DNA of 40,356 bases from a virus: the IMG/VR virus record IMGVR_UViG_3300020428_000847, positions 1 to 40,356 of that record; one strand, 5' to 3'. Both the position numbers and the translations under genes were made by a program. The notes below the pieces were generated by a model. It was not told where the DNA came from. It did not search any database and worked only from the letters and a program-made list of their open reading frames with translations. Shown here piece after piece: positions 4,948-25,619 of the stretch (its first letter is position 1; every line of letters starts with the position of its first letter).

Positions 4948-7900
4948 CTAAACATTAAAGCTGTAATTCCCGAACGGAATATACTGCTCTAAGCTGTTTC
5001 CAGTGGTGTTATCAATAACATATCTGTCAATTTCAAAGTCTAGCTGTCTAAAATCAAAGCCATTATTCTGTATATTTAACAGTATTTGGGCACTTGTACC
5101 TGGTTTACAGTAGCATAGCGGAATAGCACTTACATAGCCTAATTCTTCTACAGTATTGGTCTGTGCAGTAGACATCCATAATGGTAAGAAGTTTTGCTCT
5201 GTAGTTCCTACTTTACTTAAATTTTCTCTCATATTAGTTATATTACTAATGTATCTAGTTTGGCTACTTGGATCACTAATTTTAACTGCATCACTTGATA
5301 CCTTAATTGGTGTTCCGTCCGGTCTAAATCTAAATGGATCACTTGATGTTGTAGCTACTAGTCCTGCTGTTAGTTCAGCACCACTTCTTGTAGTTACTTG
5401 TATAATACCATTAGCGTCAATAGTAACACTACCACCGTTTCTAGATAGGATATTTAGATCATTTCCAAATGCTCTAACTAATACTGTTTGACCAATTGAG
5501 TTGGTAATTTCAAATACTGCCAATCCAGCACCTTCTTTAGATGCATCATCTCCTGTTTCGTACTCTACACTATCAACAGTAATTTTTCTGTCATTTAAAA
5601 TAGTTTGTTTAGATGCCACTGAAGTAACACCTGATGTTATATCACTAGGATCAATAACTTCAACATATATAACTTCGTATATTGTATCTGTACTTCCTGT
5701 CTTTCTTGCTATCGCAGATTTTATTGCACCCATTTTAAATCTTTTTCTTTTATGATTTTTTCTAGTTGCCGCGATGTATTCTCTAATCTCTTTTGTTTCC
5801 AATCCTGAATAAACTAACATCTTAACCTGCTTCTGTAAACCAAATTCTGGATCGTTTGGTCTATAAATTGATGCGGGTGTAAACACATTAGGATCACCGA
5901 TGAAGTTGCTGTATGCAGACCTCTGTGTGCTTTTAAGAAGGGGTTTTACGTAGAGATTGCTGTACGTTATGTTGTCAGGATCGCTTACTATAATATTGAA
6001 TTCTCTTGTAGTAGCACTAAATCCAAATCTATCCCTTGCTCGAATTGTAAACTTAAATTTTCTATCAGTAGTAGTTGTACCACCGTCCATTGAAAAGTCG
6101 TTGCCATCAATAGTTGTTAGTCCTAGTAGTGTACCACTAGCAAACTGTCTTACTTTACCTACTATCTCACCATTATAATTTAATACAAGTCCTGGTGGTA
6201 AAATTCCTGCTGTAATATCATATAACAATGATGATGTTGAAACTGTTGTTGTAGCACTTACGGCAAATGTACTGATAAAGTTTGCATTAATGCTACCAAG
6301 TGCCGCCGCAGTATTCCAAGTAATTGTACTTTCAACTTCACCTAATATTTTAATTGTAAATGTTTTTTGTTTTTCAGCTATCAAAGATGCTTTGCTAATA
6401 CTTGTATATCTTTTAGCTGATACAGTAAATTTATATTCTTTAGTTACCGCAGGCATATAAGGTACTCGTCCTGCAATCTCACCACTTGTTGGATCTATTG
6501 TCATTCCTGGTGGTATGGTACTTGTTGTACCGTCATCATTATTCTGTTGTAGTTCATATGACAATACACCAGTAAGTGTATTAGGATCAAATACTTCTAA
6601 AAATATTGTTACATAGTTGTTTGCTCTTTTGTAACCTAAGTCTGCTGGAGTTAACCATAATGGCGTTCTTAGATATGTATTATCAGCAGTAAATATTCCT
6701 GTTCCTATCTGCATGATAGTATTATCTGCACGTAGGAAATCATCTCCAACTAAAAATATTTGAAACTTACGTTTTTCAATAGTATCGCCATCACTAACAC
6801 TTACAGTGAACTCGTATATCCTGTTTAATTTCTTTGGACTTTGTGTAGGTATTGCGTAGTCATAACCTTGAGTATCATAGTAGTAACTTTCAAAACCGTT
6901 TGCACTTCTCATTCCATAATCAAAAGCAAAGGTATCATATTGTGTTTGATCGTAATATCCATTTCCGCTTCTAGCATCTAAGGCCATTATAGGATCAACA
7001 ATACCAACTAGCTTACCATCTGTGGTTAGCGTTATTCCTGGAGGTAGCGTACCGTCACCATCTGATATAAAATATTCTAAACTTTGTCCTGTTGGTAAAT
7101 CAGCATCAATGGCACTTAATTGGAAGTCAACTATGCTACTATCTAATATGTAAAAACTGTTGTTAGGTCCTAAAGGTAGTTTACCTGTATTAGTTGTCCA
7201 TACTGGATTGTCAGCACCTTGTACTTGAATCTTAAATGTTCTATCTCTAGTACCATCATTGTTTTTTGCTCTAAGAACAAATTCGTAGTCTGTATCTCTT
7301 GCTACTTCAAAAGGTGTTCCTACAATTTTATTATCTAGTAAACGCATACCATCTGGTAATGATCCACTAATAACTGTAATAACATCTGTGTTTAAATTAA
7401 TATCTGTAACAGAACCAGATTCTAAAAATATGTCTGGAGCACTTGCTTGAGTATATGTTAATTGGTTACCTACTATTTGTTTCATATAATCTTCTACGCC
7501 ATGTGCGGCATTTGTTTTGTAATGTAGCACCTGACCTGCTAGATATGAATAATAGTAAACACCGGTAACACCATAATATACACCACCAGCATCTGGAATG
7601 ATTCCTCCTGTGTATCCTTGTGACTTCGCTACTTGGTAAACACTATTTTGGGCTTCTAAGAAACTATATCCAAACGCATGAGATCCTCCTGCGTAAGGAA
7701 TGACCGTATCTGCTGTACCATGTATGTTTAAAAACTTTCTTCCTTTTAAAGGAGTCTTTGCAGTATTGTATTCTGCTGTCGTAACACCTGTTTCTCCAGA
7801 TGGAATATAAAATGTATCATTTCTAAACATAGGATCAAAGAATTGTGTTCCTATTGTACAAACGACATCCAAAGATGTATCATCTATCTGTACGTATGCT

Positions 7901-8439
7901 CTATTAGCCAATGCCGCACCATTACTAAATCCTACTATTCTAATTTTAGTATTATCAACGTTTGAATAATTTGTTAATTGTGTAATTAAGTCTTGCAACA
8001 TTTCAACGTCTGGTGCTTTTGTATTTTCGTGTGCAACGTTCCAAGCATTATTATAACCAGTTGGTGCAATAAGAATATGATCACCTAAGTAATTTTCCCA
8101 AGCAGTAATTTCGTTAGGACCATTACCACCATTACCATGTAATAGTATTGCAACAGGTAAACGTTTATTTGTTAGTGCAGGTATTGTTGGAATTCTAATA
8201 GCAAAAGGATAATCATATGTTACAGATGATCCACCTTGTGTCCAAGTTTTGGAAATACCTATATTTGTAGCATTTTGTATTCTTGATTGAGCTGGAAGAC
8301 TGATAGAAGTTGTTCCTGGATCAAATCCTGTTCCACTTGCTGAACCTGGAGCAATAGGTAAAGTGATAGAAGTCGTAACTCTTTCTTGCAGAGTTGCTAG
8401 TCTATATCCTGAATTTTGTGTCCACTGTGGTACTGCCAT
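4948..8439 (-). CDS. Virion protein: esterase (PHB-depolymerase/feruloyl-esterase type) fused to Ig-like repeats
   Basis: A 1163-residue protein. Residues about 70-325 form an alpha/beta hydrolase of the LpqC/PHB-depolymerase esterase family: oxyanion L-L-H-G-N-G-G (99-105), nucleophile elbow G-F-S-N-G with Ser172, acid in H-G-T-A-D-T-V-I-P (Asp244) and His313 in A-A-H-G. All three triad residues are present in order. Residues 335-820 hold four Ig-like (He_PIG) repeats, each marked by L-P-x-G-[IM]-x-L...G.[IL].G and ending in a F-x-F-x-[VI] strand pair. The last 340 residues are a separate module ending R-Y-V-I-D then Y-I-P-F-G-N-Y. This is best read as a tail adhesin that removes ester groups from a surface polymer; the substrate is unknown. 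The late box at 8461 precedes it. Confidence 0.8.
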   Translation of the reverse strand: MAVPQWTQNSGYRLATLQERVTTSITLPIAPGSASGTGFDPGTTSISLPAQSRIQNATNIGISKTWTQGGSSVTYDYPFAIRIPTIPALTNKRLPVAILLHGNGGNGPNEITAWENYLGDHILIAPTGYNNAWNVAHENTKAPDVEMLQDLITQLTNYSNVDNTKIRIVGFSNGAALANRAYVQIDDTSLDVVCTIGTQFFDPMFRNDTFYIPSGETGVTTAEYNTAKTPLKGRKFLNIHGTADTVIPYAGGSHAFGYSFLEAQNSVYQVAKSQGYTGGIIPDAGGVYYGVTGVYYYSYLAGQVLHYKTNAAHGVEDYMKQIVGNQLTYTQASAPDIFLESGSVTDINLNTDVITVISGSLPDGMRLLDNKIVGTPFEVARDTDYEFVLRAKNNDGTRDRTFKIQVQGADNPVWTTNTGKLPLGPNNSFYILDSSIVDFQLSAIDADLPTGQSLEYFISDGDGTLPPGITLTTDGKLVGIVDPIMALDARSGNGYYDQTQYDTFAFDYGMRSANGFESYYYDTQGYDYAIPTQSPKKLNRIYEFTVSVSDGDTIEKRKFQIFLVGDDFLRADNTIMQIGTGIFTADNTYLRTPLWLTPADLGYKRANNYVTIFLEVFDPNTLTGVLSYELQQNNDDGTTSTIPPGMTIDPTSGEIAGRVPYMPAVTKEYKFTVSAKRYTSISKASLIAEKQKTFTIKILGEVESTITWNTAAALGSINANFISTFAVSATTTVSTSSLLYDITAGILPPGLVLNYNGEIVGKVRQFASGTLLGLTTIDGNDFSMDGGTTTTDRKFKFTIRARDRFGFSATTREFNIIVSDPDNITYSNLYVKPLLKSTQRSAYSNFIGDPNVFTPASIYRPNDPEFGLQKQVKMLVYSGLETKEIREYIAATRKNHKRKRFKMGAIKSAIARKTGSTDTIYEVIYVEVIDPSDITSGVTSVASKQTILNDRKITVDSVEYETGDDASKEGAGLAVFEITNSIGQTVLVRAFGNDLNILSRNGGSVTIDANGIIQVTTRSGAELTAGLVATTSSDPFRFRPDGTPIKVSSDAVKISDPSSQTRYISNITNMRENLSKVGTTEQNFLPLWMSTAQTNTVEELGYVSAIPLCYCKPGTSAQILLNIQNNGFDFRQLDFEIDRYVIDNTTGNSLEQYIPFGNYSFNV

Positions 8440-8483: not shown

Positions 8484-9359
8484 TTAAAATGCTCTTTGTT
8501 GTTTTGTGCTAGGGCCAACAATATATGGATATACGGGCTGTAAATTTGAATCTACTGTTACATGATAACAGTATGTACCAGCAGTATATTCTGGTGTTTT
8601 TTCAAATCTACCGTTGTATTCATCTAATAAACCTGTACCAATTTGATACTCATGATCGTTAACAAATGTACCTGCTGTTTTGGCACCGTACAAGTAACCT
8701 CTACCTGTAGGTTCTGTTGAATAGTATTGATAAGAGCTTGTCATTCTAACTACTGTTGATGATGGATCATTGTAGTCTGAATAACCATAAGGTCCGTAAA
8801 TAGGATAACCGTCAAAACAATATCCTAAAATTTTACTGTGTCCATCTGCGTGTCTAAAGTGATCTCCACTAAAGTTACTTGCTGTATAATATGTTGCCGC
8901 CGGAGTTGCACCTGTAACCATTGCTGTATTCCAGCCTGCACTTGCTTCTGATGAACCTGTTGGTAAGTTTAAAAACTGTCCTGACATATAATGATATTGT
9001 CCTGAAAGCTCTGGCCATCCACCTGCATCATCTCCGCCATAGTTTGTTCTAAATTGTACAGCATTATATTCAAACCCTGTACCTGGTGCGTCTGTACTTG
9101 GATCTAGTCCTGGAGGTACCGCGGCAACTCCCGCTGATGGGCTAAAAAATACAACACCATTGTTCATAATTCCAATTGGTGTAAGAGCAGTTACTAATTG
9201 TGGGTTAGACGTATTAGTTCCACCTCTGTAAGTAAATGAATAGTTATATGTTTGTGCCGCCGCTGTATTGGCGCTTGGTGAAAATGCGTTATTACCGAAT
9301 GCCTTTCCAAATTGTGCTGGATTAGGTAAACCGTTTGATGTTACTGTTAGTGTTGCCAT
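8484..9359 (-). CDS. YHYH-domain virion protein
   Basis: A 291-residue protein with the hallmarks of the YHYH domain: Q-Y-H-Y-M-S-G (121-127), G-H-S-K-I-L-G-Y-C-F-D-G-Y-P-I-Y-G-P-Y-G-Y (173-193) and the closing T-Y-C-Y-H-V-T-V-D (262-270). The domain is common in secreted and surface proteins of marine bacteria and in fibre regions of marine phages; its biochemical activity is not established, though the conserved His, Cys and Asp suggest metal or ligand binding. The first 90 residues are beta-rich. The ATG shares one base with the stop of the upstream fibre gene (TAATG), so the two are coupled. Likely a tail adhesin subunit. Confidence 0.75.
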   Translation of the reverse strand: MATLTVTSNGLPNPAQFGKAFGNNAFSPSANTAAAQTYNYSFTYRGGTNTSNPQLVTALTPIGIMNNGVVFFSPSAGVAAVPPGLDPSTDAPGTGFEYNAVQFRTNYGGDDAGGWPELSGQYHYMSGQFLNLPTGSSEASAGWNTAMVTGATPAATYYTASNFSGDHFRHADGHSKILGYCFDGYPIYGPYGYSDYNDPSSTVVRMTSSYQYYSTEPTGRGYLYGAKTAGTFVNDHEYQIGTGLLDEYNGRFEKTPEYTAGTYCYHVTVDSNLQPVYPYIVGPSTKQQRAF

Positions 9360-10092: not shown

Positions 10093-11703
10093 CTATAAGT
10101 CCGTTTGATCATTACCACTAGTACCTCTAAATTTAAGAGGATTTGGACTGCTATAAGGCCAGTGTGCTACTCTGTTAGGAGCACCGTATAAACGTGGGTA
10201 ACTGTTACCATAGCTAAAACTTTCTGCTGTACCACTGTCGTATGCTGTTGGTGTACTATTATCTGTTAAAAACTTTTTAAACTGTGCCGCAGTTCCACCT
10301 GGGTTTGCTTGTAGCCATAAAGCACCCATTCCACATATTTGTGGAGCCGCCATGCTAGTTCCACCAATCTTAGCCATGTAGTGTGTTGAACTTCCTGGAT
10401 ATAGCTGTTTACTTCCGTATGCACTTACTTGGCTAGTTGCACTAGAAATATCATCACCTGCGGCAATAATATCTATCCTTGGTCCGCGTTCACTATCTAT
10501 TCTAACTTTTTCTTCACTACCATATTGTTGAGTATCCATATTTGCGACAAATAAAGTATCTTCACTATGTGGTGAACTAGGACGATTGTAATAGAATCGA
10601 TATGCTCCATAAGTAGCTGTGGTGTAATAACTGTCATATATACCACTTCCATATTGTCCTGTTGTTAGATACGCACAAGGGTGATATGCGTTACCGGCCG
10701 CCTTGACACAAATAATACCTGCGTCAGTTAGCTGTTGTTGTTCTACGTCTGCTGAACTACTTTGTATAGGGTGTTTACTACCAGTCATTCCATAGTTTAC
10801 AAATGCACTTGAAAAGTTTGCTGGTGTAATATTCTGATTAACACCTTTGAAATAGATTGATGTTAGTTGTCCATTATTTGAATATGTATTAGAATAACCC
10901 CAACTTTGATTTACAATAGTAGGACGTCTAAATCCTGTGTTAGGATCAATAGGTTTTTTCAAATGCCATTCTCTAATAACATCATAGATATCATTCATTG
11001 ACATAGCACTCGTTCCACCAAAAAGTCTTACTGAATATAGTTGTGCATTCTTGGCCCAACCGTATGTCTTACCTGCGGCAATACCACAGCAATGACTACC
11101 ATGAGCACCTGCTCTGTTCGTATCTGAATAGTTGTTTGTATAGTGACCACTTGGCATGGTTCCACTTACACCAGATGCCGCATACCAATCTATTTGATTA
11201 AATCTTGTAACCCCATTGTAATCTTCCCACTCAGGATGTCCTGTAGGATCAACACCGTCATCTTGTATAACAATGTCTACACCTGTTCCATCTAGTGTGT
11301 AGTTGTAATCTCCTGTGAAAGTCTGGTCTGCCGCTTGATCGGCTTGCCATTCTTTAAACAAGTGTCTATACAATCCCCAATTTTTATCAGTTTGTTGGTC
11401 AACTGTTGTTCTTTGGAAATTATCATTTTGTACTGCATAAGGTTCAGCATACTGATCTATGCTTGAAGGTTCAACGTCAAGTATTCTTCCATCAGCTTTT
11501 AGTTTTTCTGCTTCTGCTGGTTCAAGCATATAACAAGTTATTCTATTGTTAGTTGCTTTTGCGTGTGAAACATCACAGGTTCTATCAGGAAAGACATTTG
11601 AATCAACACCAGCATCACTGCTAGTATCTCTTTGTAAGTCATAGTCTATTTCAGCTACATCTATTCCTTTGTTTGTTATTACTCTATATTCTTCTTGTGC
11701 CAT
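10093..11703 (-). CDS. Subtilisin-like serine protease (S8), virion-associated
   Basis: A 536-residue protein with a complete S8 catalytic set: Asp148 in I-V-I-Q-D-D-G-V, His201 in G-A-H-G-S-H-C-C-G-I, oxyanion Asn338 in K-A-A-G-N-A and Ser450 in G-G-T-S-M-A-A-P. Residues 1-130 resemble an S8 pro-region or attachment domain (I-T-N-K-G-I-D then repeated D-V-E-P). There is no signal peptide, so it is unlikely to be exported by the host Sec route and fits a virion part instead. Together with its paralogue upstream (stop and start overlap, TAATG) it sits between fibre genes. It may cleave a host surface protein or mature neighbouring fibres. Which of these is not visible from sequence. Confidence 0.85.
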   Translation of the reverse strand: MAQEEYRVITNKGIDVAEIDYDLQRDTSSDAGVDSNVFPDRTCDVSHAKATNNRITCYMLEPAEAEKLKADGRILDVEPSSIDQYAEPYAVQNDNFQRTTVDQQTDKNWGLYRHLFKEWQADQAADQTFTGDYNYTLDGTGVDIVIQDDGVDPTGHPEWEDYNGVTRFNQIDWYAASGVSGTMPSGHYTNNYSDTNRAGAHGSHCCGIAAGKTYGWAKNAQLYSVRLFGGTSAMSMNDIYDVIREWHLKKPIDPNTGFRRPTIVNQSWGYSNTYSNNGQLTSIYFKGVNQNITPANFSSAFVNYGMTGSKHPIQSSSADVEQQQLTDAGIICVKAAGNAYHPCAYLTTGQYGSGIYDSYYTTATYGAYRFYYNRPSSPHSEDTLFVANMDTQQYGSEEKVRIDSERGPRIDIIAAGDDISSATSQVSAYGSKQLYPGSSTHYMAKIGGTSMAAPQICGMGALWLQANPGGTAAQFKKFLTDNSTPTAYDSGTAESFSYGNSYPRLYGAPNRVAHWPYSSPNPLKFRGTSGNDQTDL

Positions 11704-13247
11704 TAGTTACCACTCGCTTTAAATCCTGTTGGACCTGTTGTGTCTAAACCTTTTTTCTTACTAAACGTTTTACTCTTACCTAAGTTTCCAAAGAATGCAA
11801 TTCTATTTGAAGTTGCATCTGGACTCATCAAGTTTCTGTTATTGTTAAAGAAGTTAGATGGTGTATTTTCATCTGTTGAACCTTGATATAATAATCCTTT
11901 GATACTATTCTTATGCCACCACTCACGTAGTTGTGCAGGAGTGTATCCCGGATTAAGTTGTAATACCAAACAGCTCATTCCTGCTACATTAGGAGTACTC
12001 ATTGATGTTCCACTGAGATTTAATATTGCAGTACTGTTAGAATTTGTAGCACTAACAATATTTGTACCTGCCGCATAAACATCTACTCTTGGTCCTTTAT
12101 CACTTGAACTTGAACAGGCTTCTGAACTTGAATATAATGCACTATCTAAGTTACCACAAACAATAGTATGAGGGCCTATGTTACCTGCACCTCTGTTATA
12201 GTATATAGGATTACCTGCTGTAATATTTCCTGAATTAATACTTCTTGTAATGTAGTTGTTATAATCCACATCAGTTGAGTAACAAAGTTTTTGTCCTTGG
12301 TTACCTGCACTCTTATGATAGTGTACACCTTCGTCTTGCATTTCTTCTACTTCTGCCATCAAGTTGTAAATCTGTGCATTGAATCTATTTGCACCATCTC
12401 CGATCATTCCGTATTGTGATTGTTTTACAGAACCAACACTTGATCCTCTAAAGTTTATATCAGTGATACTTGAGAAGTAACTTTTATATCCCCAACTAGC
12501 ACTTACCACTGTTGGTCTTTTAAATCCTGTAATTGGATTAACAGTTTTTGCTTTGTGAAATTCTTTGATAGCATCAAACCAATAGCTTGAGTTTACTGTA
12601 TTCATATCCAAACAATATATGTTTGCGTTCTTGGCCCAGCCATATGTTTTACCAACTGCCGTTCCGGCACAGTGAGTAGCATGATAGCTTGAACTTGCTG
12701 AATTAGTATAGTCTAGTGTTGCTATTGAAGAACAGTTAGGAAGTGTGTTCCATTGAAACTGTTGTAAGCGACTGTTACCGTTCTTGTCTTGCCATTCTTC
12801 GTGATCATATCTAAATTTTGTTTCTTGGTGTATGTAATCAATACCACTACCATCTAAATGATAATCATGTGATCCACCTATGTCACCTGTCTGAGAACCT
12901 GCTCCCCAAGGATTGCTTTCTTGTACGTGTCTTTTAAATCCCCAATTATCTCTTGAAGTAGCTGTAGCATTTCTAATAAATGTTCCTGCTTGTTCGTAGT
13001 CTAACCATTCATCGTCCCATACCAAAGGTTCGTTTACACCACCTACTCTTGAATCTTTTAATAATGCTGTTGCTTCTTCATCTGTAAGAGCAACCTCCAA
13101 CATACGTTTACTAATTGGTCTTTCGTTTACTGTTGAAACTTCTCTGTCAGGAATGTCAGTAATAGATGTAGAAGTATTCAGTTCATTTAAGAACTGTTCC
13201 TTGTCTACCCCTTTATGTAATGAAACAACGTAATGTTTTTCTGACAT
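11703..13247 (-). CDS. Subtilisin-like protein with altered catalytic acid
   Basis: A 514-residue paralogue of the downstream protease, with the same order: a 100-residue N-terminal domain (Y-V-V-S-L-H-K-G-V-D), then the S8 fold. His189 (Y-H-A-T-H-C-A-G-T), Asn316 (K-S-A-G-N-Q-G) and Ser415 (S-G-T-S-M-S-T-P) are kept. The segment that holds the catalytic Asp in the sister (V-I-Q-D-D-G-V) reads I-H-Q-E-T-K-F, so Glu142 replaces Asp and the following Gly is Lys. This suggests weak or no protease activity, perhaps a binding or structural partner of the active copy. The ribosome site AGGGG precedes the ATG. It lies between the cupredoxin-tipped fibre (8-base gap) and the active protease (1-base overlap). 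Confidence 0.8.
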   Translation of the reverse strand: MSEKHYVVSLHKGVDKEQFLNELNTSTSITDIPDREVSTVNERPISKRMLEVALTDEEATALLKDSRVGGVNEPLVWDDEWLDYEQAGTFIRNATATSRDNWGFKRHVQESNPWGAGSQTGDIGGSHDYHLDGSGIDYIHQETKFRYDHEEWQDKNGNSRLQQFQWNTLPNCSSIATLDYTNSASSSYHATHCAGTAVGKTYGWAKNANIYCLDMNTVNSSYWFDAIKEFHKAKTVNPITGFKRPTVVSASWGYKSYFSSITDINFRGSSVGSVKQSQYGMIGDGANRFNAQIYNLMAEVEEMQDEGVHYHKSAGNQGQKLCYSTDVDYNNYITRSINSGNITAGNPIYYNRGAGNIGPHTIVCGNLDSALYSSSEACSSSSDKGPRVDVYAAGTNIVSATNSNSTAILNLSGTSMSTPNVAGMSCLVLQLNPGYTPAQLREWWHKNSIKGLLYQGSTDENTPSNFFNNNRNLMSPDATSNRIAFFGNLGKSKTFSKKKGLDTTGPTGFKASGN

Positions 13248-13255
13248 AGTAACCC

Positions 13256-15886
13256 CTAAACTATTGTTAAGTTACCTACCATGCCCCCGTGAATAGTACA
13301 CTGGTATACCAATGACGTATCACTTGGTTCATGTGGTACTGTAAATACTTGCGTTCCTGTAGTACTTCCACTAACACCTTCTGTGAATGAACTACCACCA
13401 TTTGATACTCTAATTGCAAATGGATGTCCTGATCCAGTAGTGTTATTAAAGATATAAGTAGCACCCTTGTACAATGTAAAGTTTGGATTGTCAGCTGTTG
13501 CACTAACACCTGGTCCTGCAAATCTATATGCACTTGCACCATTTGATGTTACCGTGTAGTAGTAAACTGGACCTTGTGTTGCCGCCCAAGCACTACCATT
13601 GTAGTAAACCATATCACCAGCCGCCGGTGAACTTATTGAAATTCCTGATATTGTATCATTTACCCAAGCACTACCATTCCATTTTAAGAACTGTCCTGAA
13701 CTTGGAGTTGATATAGTAACGTCTGCTAGATCATCTAGATCAGTATTACCTGCATTAATTGTTATGTTACCTTCTGTATCACTTGCAGTTGTTATTCTTG
13801 TACCACCAATAATTTTAATTGATTCGTTGCTGTTAATTGCAATCATCGAAGAGTCATCAGCACCTATGCTAAAGCTAAATTGTCCGCCTGTACTTTTCCA
13901 TGTACTACCATTGTAGAATACAACATCACCTACGTTGGCATCATATATCATATCACCTGCTTGTCCTGTTAAACCATTTATTCCATCTTGGTCATAACTT
14001 CCTAGTCTTAAAGGTGTTCTTTGTAATACCACAGCATTCGCGGCATCAAATATAATATTACTTGCACTTGTAAATGTTGGTACACCAGTTCCTGATGTTT
14101 GCATTGTGTCTGCTGTAATAGTTGTTGCATTTATAGTTGTAAACGATCCTGTTACACCTGTTAGTGTATCAGTTGTTTTGTTGTAAGTTAAACCTGAATC
14201 TCCACCAAATGAACTTGCATCATTAAACTGAACCTGTGTATCAGAACCTCCTGGAGTTCCTCCTCCACCACCGCCACCTGATGAGTTAATTGTAATTGTA
14301 TCTGTACCTGAGTCAGTTGTAATTGTTACGTTGGTTCCTCCAACAAGAGTTAATGTATCTGTTGTTGAGTCTGCTGTAACTGTATTCTGTCCTGCTACTG
14401 CTATGTTGGCAAATAAGTTTTGTGTTCCGCCGCCACCAGTTTGGTCAACCCAAGCTAGTACTCCTGATCCGTTTGTTTTTAAAACTTGATCTGCACTTCC
14501 ATCACCGTCTGGTAAAATAAATGTTGTGTTAGATGTTAGTGTAGCTGGTGCTCTAACGGCAGTATAGTTTCCGTTATCACCTGCATAGTATCTAGTTTCT
14601 GCGGCACTTGCCATCTTAAAGTGTGTGCCAACTGTAATTTCGTTTGTTCCGTTATCTAGTGTGCCACTTACGTTTACGTCTGTTGCATTTATTGTTGTAC
14701 TGTTTAAAGTTACAGCCGCTAATGTATTTGTATTAGGATTATAATTAAAGTTTGCATCTGTTCTAGCTGTTTGAGTACCACCGCCATTGGAACCTACAAA
14801 CATTGGATATTGTGTTGCCGCACTATTGTCAGTTGTTACTGTGATAGTTGCCGCATCAATATTGTTTAATGCACGAGGTCTCCATTTGTTTGCACTTGCT
14901 ACCCAACTTAATGCATAATCATTTTGTGGAGCAACCGTAGTAACATCAACATCTGATAAGTCACCAATTTCTGAAATAGAACTTGATACTGTTCCTGGTT
15001 CCCATCTGCTTTGTGCATTGTCCCAAATAAGAGCTTGTCCATTGTTAGCACCTGCTGTAACTACATCATTGATATCACCTAAGTTTAATGATGCTGTAAC
15101 TGTAATTTTTCCTTCTGCGTCTGAGGCTGTAGTTATTCCACCGCCACCTGCAATTTGTAATGTTTCACCGTAGCCGATATTTCTAACTGTTGAATCATCA
15201 GCCGCCACTTGTATTAATGTTCCACCAGTTTCTTGTGCTAGTGGTATCCAAGCACCTGCGTGTGCAAAGTAGGCTTTACCTGTTGCGTGTACGTGTGCAA
15301 ACATTCCGTGCCAATCTGTTGCACTTGGTAAGTCTGCCAATGTTGCGAATACGTTTTTAAAATAAACTTTACCAACTGATATATCTCTAGTTGAAGTTGC
15401 ACCTCTGGCTAAAACTGTATCTAGTGTATCAGCTTCTGTAACAGTTGCTCTGTATTTGAAAGTTTGTGACGCATGGTCATAATAAAGAACTTTACCATCA
15501 TCACTTGATACCGGAGTAGTTACGTTAGCTAATGTTTGTATGTTTGCCGCTTGTATACGTGCATCTGATCTTGCATTTGAAAAGAATAAATTAGTTGTTC
15601 CTTCTACTATTTGATCTGATGTTGTACCTGTTGCTAGATATCCAATGTCGTTTGCAAAAGAACTTATAGCACTTGGTACTGTAGGAATAATTGGCTTATT
15701 AGATAAGTCGTTATAATCACCACTGAACGGATTGTTAAATGATACGTTGTTAATTCTTACGTCTGTTGCGTTTACTGTTCCTACGTTAGTAAGTCCAGAT
15801 CCACCAAGATCTAAATTATCACCGACTGGTAATTCTTTAATCTTTTTATCCGTTGTATCTACTACTAGTGGTATTCTATTTGCCAT
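13256..15886 (-). CDS. Tail fibre with C-terminal cupredoxin-like copper-site domain
   Basis: An 876-residue fibre. The body consists of repeated beta units typical of phage fibres (L-S-N-K-P-I-I-P, A-Q-N-D-Y-A-L-S-W, G-Q-F-L-K-W-N-G-S-A-W) and a Gly-rich hinge near residue 540. The last 105 residues differ: Y-Y-Y-T-V-T-S-N-G-A-S-A-Y-R-F then F-T-L-Y-K-G-A-T-Y-I-F, G-H-P-F-A-I (His821) and Y-Q-C-T-I-H-G-G-M-V-G (Cys863, His866, Met869). His, Cys, His and Met in this order and spacing are the type 1 copper ligands of cupredoxins. The domain would sit at the tip of the fibre, where receptor contact occurs. It starts 19 bases after the exact T4 late box TATAAATA. Confidence 0.75.
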   Translation of the reverse strand: MANRIPLVVDTTDKKIKELPVGDNLDLGGSGLTNVGTVNATDVRINNVSFNNPFSGDYNDLSNKPIIPTVPSAISSFANDIGYLATGTTSDQIVEGTTNLFFSNARSDARIQAANIQTLANVTTPVSSDDGKVLYYDHASQTFKYRATVTEADTLDTVLARGATSTRDISVGKVYFKNVFATLADLPSATDWHGMFAHVHATGKAYFAHAGAWIPLAQETGGTLIQVAADDSTVRNIGYGETLQIAGGGGITTASDAEGKITVTASLNLGDINDVVTAGANNGQALIWDNAQSRWEPGTVSSSISEIGDLSDVDVTTVAPQNDYALSWVASANKWRPRALNNIDAATITVTTDNSAATQYPMFVGSNGGGTQTARTDANFNYNPNTNTLAAVTLNSTTINATDVNVSGTLDNGTNEITVGTHFKMASAAETRYYAGDNGNYTAVRAPATLTSNTTFILPDGDGSADQVLKTNGSGVLAWVDQTGGGGTQNLFANIAVAGQNTVTADSTTDTLTLVGGTNVTITTDSGTDTITINSSGGGGGGGTPGGSDTQVQFNDASSFGGDSGLTYNKTTDTLTGVTGSFTTINATTITADTMQTSGTGVPTFTSASNIIFDAANAVVLQRTPLRLGSYDQDGINGLTGQAGDMIYDANVGDVVFYNGSTWKSTGGQFSFSIGADDSSMIAINSNESIKIIGGTRITTASDTEGNITINAGNTDLDDLADVTISTPSSGQFLKWNGSAWVNDTISGISISSPAAGDMVYYNGSAWAATQGPVYYYTVTSNGASAYRFAGPGVSATADNPNFTLYKGATYIFNNTTGSGHPFAIRVSNGGSSFTEGVSGSTTGTQVFTVPHEPSDTSLVYQCTIHGGMVGNLTIV

Positions 15887-23145: not shown

Positions 23146-23469
23146 CTAAAATCCTACACTTTCACCACAACCGCAACTTGATGTTGCATTAGGGCTTTTA
23201 ATATCAAAATATGATCCAAATACTTCTTTCTTATAATCTATTGTAGTACCTAATAAGTACATAACACTCGCAGGATCTACAACAAACAAACCGCCATCTA
23301 CCTTAATTTGTTCGTCATCGCTCTTGATTTCGTCTTCCATACTCCACTCGTATTTGAATCCAGCACAGCCGCCACCCTTTAATCCTAGCCTAATAGCCGG
23401 TTTATCGTGTTCTTTAAGCATTGTTGCCATATGCTCCCTTGCTGTTTCTGTTAGATTTACAATTGACAT
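23146..23469 (-). CDS. A-type iron-sulfur cluster carrier (IscA/ErpA/HesB family)
   Basis: A 107-residue protein of normal family length with the three conserved cysteines: C35 in G-G-G-C-A-G-F-K-Y and C99, C101 in S-S-C-G-C-G-E-S. The family F-D-I-x-x-P-N-A motif comes just before the last two. A-type carriers receive [2Fe-2S] or [4Fe-4S] clusters and pass them to target proteins in the cytosol. All ligands are intact, so the protein should be active. It starts 19 bases after a GATAAATA late box and leads the giant fibre gene by 3 bases, which is an unusual place for a metabolic gene. Whether it serves host enzymes late in infection or a virion protein is open. Which family member it is (IscA, SufA or ErpA) cannot be told. 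Confidence 0.9.
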   Translation of the reverse strand: MSIVNLTETAREHMATMLKEHDKPAIRLGLKGGGCAGFKYEWSMEDEIKSDDEQIKVDGGLFVVDPASVMYLLGTTIDYKKEVFGSYFDIKSPNATSSCGCGESVGF

Positions 23470-23538: not shown

Positions 23539-23829
23539 ATGTTTTTAAGAACTGAACGCAAAATACAATACTTTTTACGCAAAGGTAAAAAGGGTCAACA
23601 CCATACATACAAACGAAAAAAGACGTTAGTAGTATTTAAGTGCGACGACTGTCATGAGGAGTTTATCCGAGACAAGGGTAAAGTAGACCCTAAAAGACTA
23701 GCAGACGACTATAGTCACGTTTGTCCTAAATGTGATCCTAAAAGATTTGCACAAAAGAAAGGTGTTGAGCAACGCAAGAAATTGAATATGCGTATAGATG
23801 CTGACACGATTGATATTAGTAAATTATAA
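23539..23829 (+). CDS. Small zinc-ribbon-like protein
   Basis: A 96-residue, very basic protein. Two CxxC pairs (C35-D-D-C38 and C62-P-K-C65) give a likely four-cysteine zinc site. The first 30 residues are rich in Lys, Arg and His (Y-F-L-R-K-G-K-K-G-Q-H-H-T-Y-K-R-K-K), as in nucleic-acid binding proteins. It is the only plus-strand gene between two long minus-strand blocks and has its own late-type box. I do not recognise a family; HNH-type nucleases share the CxxC pairs, but no HNH motif is visible. A small DNA- or RNA-binding factor is the most likely reading. Confidence 0.65.
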   Translation: MFLRTERKIQYFLRKGKKGQHHTYKRKKTLVVFKCDDCHEEFIRDKGKVDPKRLADDYSHVCPKCDPKRFAQKKGVEQRKKLNMRIDADTIDISKL

Positions 23830-23853: not shown

Positions 23854-24027
23854 TTATTTCTCTTTTTTCCAAAGAGTCCAAGCACCATAACCAATTGCGG
23901 CGTAGGCGGCAATTTTAGCAAATGGTCCTGCAATAAGAACAATTACTCCGATGGCTATAAGCATAGCACCGTCCCAAGATGTTCTTTCGTCTAATCTGGA
24001 TTTGATCCAGTCTATTGGATTGATCAT
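23854..24027 (-). CDS. Small membrane protein, unknown role
   Basis: A 57-residue protein (M-I-N-P-I-D-W-I-K-S-R-L...) with an amphipathic start, one hydrophobic stretch at about residues 20-50 (M-L-I-A-I-G-V-I-V-L-I-A-G-P-F then A-A-Y-A-A-I-G-Y-G-A-W) and a basic end K-K-E-K. The stretch could form one or two helices. A strong ribosome site, AAGGAG, lies seven bases before the ATG. It follows the superoxide dismutase gene by 11 bases and faces the zinc-ribbon gene, 24 bases away. A holin-like job is possible given its size, but there is no direct evidence. Confidence 0.65.
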   Translation of the reverse strand: MINPIDWIKSRLDERTSWDGAMLIAIGVIVLIAGPFAKIAAYAAIGYGAWTLWKKEK

Positions 24028-24038
24028 AATATTTCTCC

Positions 24039-24590
24039 TTATATTGATTGTAGTCTGTTATTAATAACTTCCCAGTTAATTAACTTCATTGTGCTAGTGA
24101 GATATTTCTTTTTGCACTCTTTACCTTCTTTGGTATAATCTGAAAATGAATGTTCCCACATATCCACAGGCATCAGTATATCTGTTTTGAAAGATTGGTT
24201 TGGTGTTGTTTTAAGTTCGCCTTTCTTAGAAAGATAAACCCAACCCGATCCTTGTATGCCCATAGCAGTTTTAACAAGCTCTTCTTGGAAATTTTTATAA
24301 TCACTAAATTTGTCTTTAATAAGTTCCAAAATTGAACCTGTAGGTGTATTAGTTCCTGTTGGTTTCTTCAATTGTGTCCACCATAAATTATGTAGCTTTG
24401 CACCACCATAATTAAATTTAGGATCTCCTTCACCTGCATTGTATCTATCCACATATCCTTTTGACAGAACATTGTAATGATAGTCTACGTTCTCCTTTGA
24501 TAATATAGGAGCCAAGTCACCTATTGAATACGGTAACTTCTCTAGAGTTAGTGATTGCTCTTTGGCTTCTAATAGTTCTCTTATTATCAT
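24039..24590 (-). CDS. Superoxide dismutase, Fe/Mn family, Mn-type signature
   Basis: Converts superoxide to oxygen and hydrogen peroxide. The 183-residue protein has all four metal ligands: H38 in D-Y-H-Y-N, H67 in G-A-K-L-H-N-L-W-W, D143 and H147 in P-V-D-M-W-E-H-S-F, and the second-shell Tyr46 and G-S-G-W (114-117). Two residues that part the subtypes are of the Mn kind: Gly63 four before H67 and Gln132 in P-N-Q-S. The gateway His-His pair after the first ligand in E. coli SodB is replaced by Leu42-Ser43, which may slow or change catalysis. The first 12 residues (M-I-I-R-E-L-L-E-A-K-E-Q) are an extra helix outside the fold. No signal peptide, so it acts in the cytosol or in the virion. The gene lies 18 bases downstream of uvdE. 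Confidence 0.88.
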   Translation of the reverse strand: MIIRELLEAKEQSLTLEKLPYSIGDLAPILSKENVDYHYNVLSKGYVDRYNAGEGDPKFNYGGAKLHNLWWTQLKKPTGTNTPTGSILELIKDKFSDYKNFQEELVKTAMGIQGSGWVYLSKKGELKTTPNQSFKTDILMPVDMWEHSFSDYTKEGKECKKKYLTSTMKLINWEVINNRLQSI

Positions 24591-24608: not shown

Positions 24609-25619
24609 TTATGCGGCTTCTAATAGTGCTGAGTTGGCTAGGTTCTTGTGTTTGGATTCTACCATGATGTCTGCTGACGGTTTAAACGTTAATGCCCAGT
24701 CATTTACTGCATGATTCCACATCATATCACTGTGGGCACGTAGTTTAGCTTTCTTGTAACCTTGTTCTAATAGCTCGTCCATGTTAGGTAGTGTATTAGC
24801 ATCATGACCTACAAGTAGATCTTCACGTGATACAGAATAATGTATGACAGGTCTAACGCCACGCCAACTATCTACTATGCGTAAAAATCTATCGTCGGTG
24901 GGGTGTATGTATTCACCAGTTCGTACCCAGTGGTGGTGTATGTCAAGTACGAGTGCGACATCATCTTGGAGTTCGAGCGATGCTTCGATGCCCCACGACA
25001 TTTCGTCATTCTCGATCGTAATCGTGTTTCTCGCTTCTTGAGATAATCTTGGGAGGACTCGTTGGATACCGGCTGGACCTTGCCTACCTGATATATGGAC
25101 GTTGCATTTAAAGTCCTGGAATTGTTGGCCGTAGCCCATCCATCTGATGCAATCAACATGATATTCAAACTCCTCTATACTTCTATTTACTATTTCTGGG
25201 TTATCACTAGCAAGGACAGTAAATTGTCCTGGGTGCATAGAAAGTCTAACATCTAGCTTTCTTGCAAGTTCGCCTACCTTGGCAAAGTGTGTTTCACAGT
25301 ATGCAATTACGTCAGGCTTCTTCCAATAGTAAGACCAATCTGCCTGTGTGTAAACAGGAAGTACATCTGATCCTAGTCGAACCATTCGTAACTCATCTCG
25401 TAGTCCACCAACATATTCTATCAAGTTATGAAAACTCTGTATGTTGTGAACCATAATGTCCCATAGCCTTTGTTCTGCTACATCTCGTGTTTGCCTATTC
25501 AACCATTGTACGGTTGTGCTACGAGTGTTCAAAGGTCGTTGGATCTCTTCTAGCAGTTTTTTCTTCTGCGTCTGATCCGGGTGCATATATTTACAGGCGA
25601 AACCTATACGTTCTATCAT
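24609..25619 (-). CDS. uvdE: UV damage endonuclease UvdE
   Basis: A 336-residue TIM-barrel endonuclease that nicks DNA 5' of UV photoproducts and starts excision repair without the Uvr system. The opening R-I-G-F-A-C-K-Y, the metal-binding segments R-L-S-M-H-P-G-Q-F (149-157), N-V-H-I-S-G, I-E-N-D-E, D-I-H-H-H-W and the late K-A-K-L-R-A-H-S-D-M-M-W and M-V-E-S-K-H-K-N are all family hallmarks, and length is normal. A perfect early promoter (25626-25654) ends six bases before the ATG, so the mRNA should be leaderless. Bases about 24840-25100 are near 50% G+C by count, well above the neighbours, which suggests a more recent origin from another genome. Surface-water phages meet strong UV, so the role is plausible in repair of viral DNA. 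Confidence 0.92.
   Translation of the reverse strand: MIERIGFACKYMHPDQTQKKKLLEEIQRPLNTRSTTVQWLNRQTRDVAEQRLWDIMVHNIQSFHNLIEYVGGLRDELRMVRLGSDVLPVYTQADWSYYWKKPDVIAYCETHFAKVGELARKLDVRLSMHPGQFTVLASDNPEIVNRSIEEFEYHVDCIRWMGYGQQFQDFKCNVHISGRQGPAGIQRVLPRLSQEARNTITIENDEMSWGIEASLELQDDVALVLDIHHHWVRTGEYIHPTDDRFLRIVDSWRGVRPVIHYSVSREDLLVGHDANTLPNMDELLEQGYKKAKLRAHSDMMWNHAVNDWALTFKPSADIMVESKHKNLANSALLEAA

Follow-up and report, generated by a model that had tools for sequence, protein, structure and literature searches.

A compact superoxide dismutase of large phages bears a short N-terminal leader that suggests loading into the virus particle

The window, by which we mean the whole 40,356-nucleotide stretch of viral DNA analysed here (IMG/VR record IMGVR_UViG_3300020428_000847), encodes on its minus strand an Fe/Mn-type superoxide dismutase (SOD). 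The gene, the main features of its product and its conserved neighbours are as follows.

24039..24590, minus strand: Fe/Mn-type SOD gene, 183 aa (Pfam, AlphaFold2, Foldseek).
24567..24590, minus strand: codons 1-8 of SOD, leader MIIRELLE, with a family-wide motif following the gp21 rule; candidate capsid-targeting sequence.
24390..24479, minus strand: H38 (first ligand) to H67 (second ligand), a shortened alpha-hairpin with 29-residue spacing.
24195..24197, minus strand: Q132, the C-terminal water-coordinating Gln (Gln146 of E. coli SodA); Gln in 33 and His in 29 of 62 phage representatives.
24150..24164, minus strand: D143-M-W-E-H147, third and fourth ligands with the dimer-bridge Glu (E. coli Glu170); D, E and H in 62/62.
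24141..24143, minus strand: S150, at the Tyr174 position, from comparison with 62 phage and 21 cellular sequences.
24609..25619, minus strand: UvdE UV-damage endonuclease adjoining SOD (PF03851, E=1.2e-40); 24/33 close loci.
23854..24027, minus strand: small protein of 57 aa after SOD (family f1), hydrophobic by inspection; 28/33 loci.
23539..23829, plus strand, opposite to SOD: Cys-rich, zinc-ribbon-like protein of 96 aa (family f2); 28/33 loci.
23146..23469, minus strand: A-type Fe-S cluster carrier, IscA/ErpA-like (PF01521, E=7.7e-19); 27/33 loci.

The SOD reading frame allows a single ATG start, an in-frame stop lying seven codons upstream. Its product matched two Pfam domains above their cut-offs, Sod_Fe_C (PF02777, E=2.5e-17) and Sod_Fe_N (PF00081, E=2.4e-10), and its top PDB match was 1n0n, a human MnSOD H30 mutant (E=1.5e-21). 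Neither PHROG nor the defence-system models gave a match. The AlphaFold2 model reached a pLDDT of 91.9 and a pTM of 0.87, residues 1-7 being below pLDDT 50, and Foldseek aligned it with MnSODs at TM 0.79-0.83. By Pfam, AlphaFold2 and Foldseek alike, both the alpha-hairpin and the alpha/beta C-terminal domain are present, the hairpin being short. The protein has a SOD fold with an intact metal site: the four ligands listed in the initial annotation, H38, H67, D143 and H147, are all in place, and so are Gly63, Gln132 and the Leu42-Ser43 that it had reported in place of the usual His pair.

A profile-guided scan found relatives of this SOD on at least 594 IMG/VR contigs, so that the earlier opinion that phage-borne SOD is uncommon was wrong for large phages. 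The identical protein occurs on contigs up to 82 kb (L006), and no near nucleotide relative of the window was present in INPHARED (50,697 phage records). When 43 phage and 21 cellular sequences were placed in a tree, with a small cellular sampling, the trait columns included and no SodFM4 reference, phage and cellular SODs were split by one long branch (SH-aLRT 100). The phage SODs form one clade apart from the cellular SODs sampled, within which the MIJ3 and Vibrio phage 2.275.O rows are long-branched. In the phylogeny proposed as a check in the initial annotation, the window SOD falls in a phage-only clade, which may or may not be enzymatic; all 62 of its representatives keep the four metal ligands (three His, one Asp). 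With the MIJ3 and Vibrio phage proteins as queries, further searches added one locus and none, respectively. A single scan of 84,980 bacterial and archaeal genomes returned 13 loci, a figure that is no census of cellular SODs in general, because the scan patterns were built on the phage family. We could not point to a cellular donor: among the cellular SOD matches aligned, none exceeded 37% identity to the window protein. SOD matches in Listeria, Acinetobacter, Staphylococcus and Salmonella “phage” records appear to be host DNA, and the “freshwater phage” MW462191 carries a full-length cellular-type SOD amid bacterial-looking genes; none of these was counted as a phage SOD. The BFVD entry A0A6J5L953, a 501-aa uncultured-phage protein named superoxide dismutase, is matched by the SOD model along part of the sequence and is possibly a fusion protein.

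In the SodFM classes, a C-terminal Gln goes with the Mn-type SodFM1/5 and an N-terminal Gln is that of the Fe-type SodFM2, while X_D-2, the residue two positions before the Asp ligand, is a strong metal determinant, Gly in Mn enzymes and Thr in Fe enzymes (PMC10172142). SodFM2 is excluded for the window SOD, because Gly63 replaces the N-terminal Gln (Gly in 62/62 phage representatives). The protein has the C-terminal Gln of SodFM1 and SodFM5 (Q132), but HxxxLS and Pro141 where these classes commonly, though not invariably, have HxxxHH and Gly at X_D-2, and for this reason we did not file it under either. Compared with SodFM4, in which the last His of HxxxHH is lost, the C-terminal residue is usually His and the hairpin is of the tetrameric type, both His are lost and the hairpin is very short. 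Gly63 and Gln132 had been taken to indicate manganese. They are in line with Mn, but the 29 of 62 representatives with His at position 132, and the Pro or Leu that most phage relatives have at X_D-2, are not, and on these residues the enzyme may be either Mn-dependent or cambialistic.

The gene order in close relatives is UvdE, SOD, the 57-aa protein, the Cys-rich protein on the opposite strand and the A-type Fe-S carrier, each neighbour family being found at 24 to 28 of the 33 close loci. The 57-aa protein had no Pfam match, and the Cys-rich protein gave a weak HypA-like match, below cut-off. By inspection, several divergent loci have an A-type-carrier-like small protein or a UvdE-like gene near SOD. 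Because superoxide destroys exposed Fe-S clusters, the cassette reads as one that guards against oxidative and UV damage and repairs it. At locus L189, an IscU/NifU Fe-S scaffold-like gene (MAYSDKVIDHYENPRNVG) lies between SOD and the A-type-carrier-like gene, and heme oxygenase-like proteins are encoded after SOD at L164 and elsewhere in another SOD-bearing contig (L061:15186-15731).

Tail-fibre-type genes, a glucosaminidase, 2OG-Fe(II) oxygenases and QueD are also encoded in the window. In its tail/structural region, two tandem subtilisin-like genes (10093-13247, minus strand) were recognised, the first by PF00082 (E=1e-24) and the second by eye. An 876-aa fibre-like protein (13256-15886, minus strand) has a C-terminal stretch, HPFAIRV...YQCTIHGGMVG, that resembles a cupredoxin/plastocyanin domain with possible copper ligands. 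A 1163-aa structural protein (4948-8439, minus strand) looks at its N terminus like a PHB-depolymerase/esterase-type alpha/beta hydrolase, followed by cadherin-like repeats, and in a 291-aa protein among the tail genes (8484-9359, minus strand) the segment HSKILGYCFDGYPIYGPYGY resembles YHYH-domain proteins.

E. coli SodA and SodB start straight at the SOD core, without a leader. The leader of the phage SODs is hypervariable and about 8-15 residues long; length and other residues vary, and only L/I-x-E followed by A, S or G is retained across relatives, as in MREYLDLFE/A, MKLNDFLIE/A, MLKELKDIIIE/A and, in MIJ3, ...YISIAE/A (the slash follows the E of the motif). In phage T4, the prohead protease gp21 cleaves C-terminal to L/I-X-E (PMC9026906), the internal proteins have leaders of 10-20 residues, and the first ten residues of IPIII are enough to take a foreign protein into the head (PMC9026906; PMC5694885). 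The window SOD has a short N-terminal leader ending in L/I-x-E, as in T4, and a cut by a prohead protease is predicted after LLE, before A9. The motif [LI]xE[ASG] was present in the leaders of 47/62, 35/44 and 15/18 sequences at the 90, 75 and 60% identity cuts, as against 4.8±2.1, 3.2±1.7 and 1.7±1.2 in shuffled leaders; the maxima over 1000 shuffles were 13, 9 and 6, all exceeded by the observed counts. With the motif in 35 of 44 leaders, a gp21-type propeptide and capsid-targeting sequence fits the N-terminal segment better than the helix anchoring SOD to another protein that was at first proposed, and the option that the protein is found in virions, also raised then, is now the leading one.

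In a small clade (L034-L036), the SOD leader is of another kind and longer (MDLERLKxLAGI...), with no L/I-x-E-A/S/G near its start. In this group, two genes just before SOD, of ~160 and 520-790 aa (L076:12621-15146 on the plus strand, L035, L036), have leaders of the L/I-x-E type and may, from this resemblance, encode further packaged proteins. The SOD of Vibrio phage 2.275.O is without an N-terminal leader and has a unique C-terminal tail that holds LDE/S, possibly a C-terminal propeptide by analogy with T4 Alt, which, like gp21 itself, undergoes C-terminal cleavage as well (PMC9026906). When [LIVF]xE was counted loosely around the starts of all genes in four records, no clear peak emerged, and a tighter leader motif was found genome-wide 44 times against about 20 expected in five records; a second genome-wide pattern was shaped after inspection of the data and was excluded from the statistics. 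As the genome-wide enrichment is modest, the leader argument rests on the SOD family and on proteins of the head region.

A gp21-type S77 prohead protease is encoded in all six SOD-bearing records of at least 240 kb. Distant SOD-bearing contigs with this protease measure 243-453 kb, and in the two contigs examined T4-type portal and major head genes adjoin the protease, which assigns the SOD family to large T4-like phages. The window, a genome fragment, contains no head genes, so protease and SOD were not seen together on this contig. In four of the six large genomes, a small protein beside the protease has the same type of leader (MKLFEFFE/A in G001, MRYKELKE/A in G002, MKINDIITE/G in MIJ3, MKLVELFE/A in Vibrio phage 2.275.O). 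It sits between portal and protease in G001 and G002, and in the three genomes tested it belongs to PHROG 13986, annotated as of unknown function. Homologues of a PHROG “virion structural protein” (head and packaging) start with MKTFTQYLSE/A in G002 and MKSFASYLTE/S in G001. The motif is not general to the SOD region, as 15 of the 132 neighbours of SOD at divergent loci have one. Two other proteins, of 460-512 aa (L051:479-2017 and L061:17918-19300, both plus strand), start with MREYLDIITE/G and MRFFEFKINE/S, like capsid-targeting leaders, and had no match in Pfam or PHROG. The 243-kb phage contig G002 also carries a DnaK-like gene of 630 aa (L074:10246-12138, plus strand).

The leader suggests that in these large marine phages a short removable N-terminal tag serves to load SOD into the virus particle, from which it would be injected with the DNA. 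We give a probability of about 0.58 to the reading that the capsid takes up this phage-specific SOD, which is trimmed and then leaves with the DNA as an active enzyme. The compact Fe/Mn SOD would be synthesised as a precursor whose short N-terminal capsid-targeting sequence would, late in infection, draw it into the prohead core. There, cleavage after LLE (L/I-x-E) by a gp21-type prohead protease would leave mature SOD free inside the head, to exit with the DNA into the next host. In the new host and in the producing cells, SOD would clear superoxide, sparing Fe-S proteins and DNA, presumably to the benefit of the infection. The shortness of the leader motif counts against this reading, and no virion proteome containing this SOD was found in the open-licence literature.

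Genes for repair and Fe-S functions, rather than head genes, are the conserved neighbours of SOD, and the SOD of Vibrio phage 2.275.O lacks the N-terminal leader, as would be expected of an ordinary auxiliary metabolic enzyme that acts in the host cytoplasm only and, while replication proceeds, guards Fe-S enzymes and DNA. The plating of a T4-like Campylobacter phage is affected by oxidative-stress genes of the host, sodB among them (PMC8540345). The N-terminal segment would then have another role, in docking, turnover or translation. However, a purely cytoplasmic SOD leaves unexplained the exact gp21 cut motif within a hypervariable leader in most lineages, and the same leader on a protein of the head-gene cluster, and we regard it as unlikely.

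Residues were compared between 62 phage representatives (90% identity) and 21 cellular sequences, in E. coli SodA numbering. Tyr34 (Tyr46 in the window SOD), Trp128, Glu170 and Gly77 are invariant among the phage representatives; the retention of the ligands, Tyr34 and Glu170 in 62/62 is what selection on an enzyme would be expected to produce. The matching Tyr of cellular MnSOD (human 166) and His30 interact from opposite subunits of the dimer and form part of the lining of the substrate funnel. L42-S43 of the window SOD stand at His30-His31: position 30 is Leu in 62/62 phage representatives and His in 19/21 cellular sequences, and position 31 is Ser, Ala, Thr or Tyr in the phage proteins. 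Position 174 is Tyr in 20/21 cellular and 0/62 phage sequences, the Tyr giving way, alongside the change to Leu30, mainly to small or flexible residues. The ligand spacing of the hairpin is 28-29 residues in phage SODs versus 47-55 in cellular ones. The gateway change seen at first is genuine and invariant across the clade; the loss of Tyr174 that goes with it, the much shorter hairpin and what the N-terminal segment signifies had been missed.

In human MnSOD, H30V almost abolishes k1, H30N and H30Q remain active, and H30N/Y166F has rates about tenfold lower, a loss that is no larger than in the single mutants and was read as cooperativity of the residues (PMC9208312). The joint loss of His30 and Tyr174 in phages fits such coupling. 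Since rates fall in H30V and H30N/Y166F, Leu at position 30 could mean slow catalysis, and this gateway leaves real doubt on the catalytic rate of the phage SOD. The fixed Leu30, the loss of Tyr174 in 62/62, the near inactivity of human H30V in k1 and the deletion of about half of the first hairpin would all suit a component of the virion in which the SOD fold and metal persist while dismutase activity is weak or absent, be it a metal carrier, an internal structural protein or a DNA-bound one. We find this quite improbable: every representative retains the ligands, Tyr34, Trp128, Glu170 and the water-coordinating Gln or His, and the small or flexible residues at 174 may, with Leu30, reopen the substrate funnel, human H30N and H30Q being active. 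An origin of the leader motif in misalignment, in miscalled starts or in chance is barely credible, for although it is short and starts were called by rule, the window SOD and many relatives have one possible start codon only, and the counts lie above all 1000 shuffles at three redundancy cuts.

Returning to a packaged and ejected enzyme, we see an even chance that large phages of a widespread class carry a SOD of their own in the capsid as an ejected internal protein, with a re-engineered gateway suited to the head or the first minutes of infection. If so, phages would deliver an antioxidant enzyme at DNA entry, which would suggest that superoxide belongs to the costs of infection or to the defence against it; the [LI]xE[ASG] short-leader rule could also serve to find packaged enzymes among the uncharacterised genes of large phages. 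To our knowledge, no antioxidant enzyme is yet known as a phage ejection protein, and a packaged SOD would be the first. For SOD enzymology, a clade of hundreds with joint loss of His30 and its partner Tyr174 is a natural experiment.

The phage SOD gene itself is not new, as it is annotated in MIJ3, Callisto, Vibrio phage 2.275.O and uncultured phages. In the open-licence literature we found no study of the function of a phage-encoded SOD, and no report of the phage-wide clade, its fixed gateway or its leader. The annotated SODs of the Pseudomonas phages PA5oct/MIJ3, Vibrio phage 2.275.O and the uncultured phage A0A6J5L7W0 are of the same compact type, 32-41% identical; those of MIJ3 and 2.275.O share the gateway and hairpin of the window SOD and have His at the Gln132 position. 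With cellular SodFM1-5 (E. coli SodA/SodB, human MnSOD), the phage SODs have in common the fold, the four ligands, Tyr34, Glu170 and the C-terminal Gln/His, but they differ by the change of His30 to Leu, the loss of Tyr174, a first hairpin shorter by ~20-26 residues, Pro or Leu at X_D-2, the N-terminal leader and their separate clade.

T4 IPI-III and Alt have, like the phage SOD, a short N-terminal leader ending in L/I-x-E (PMC9026906). However, the T4 internal proteins serve host takeover or anti-restriction and are not antioxidant enzymes, and packaging of the phage SOD is a prediction from its sequence. Giant eukaryotic viruses do package a SOD in the particle, but the one that has been solved belongs to the unrelated Cu,Zn family, in viruses with eukaryotic hosts and a different packaging route (PMC9405923).
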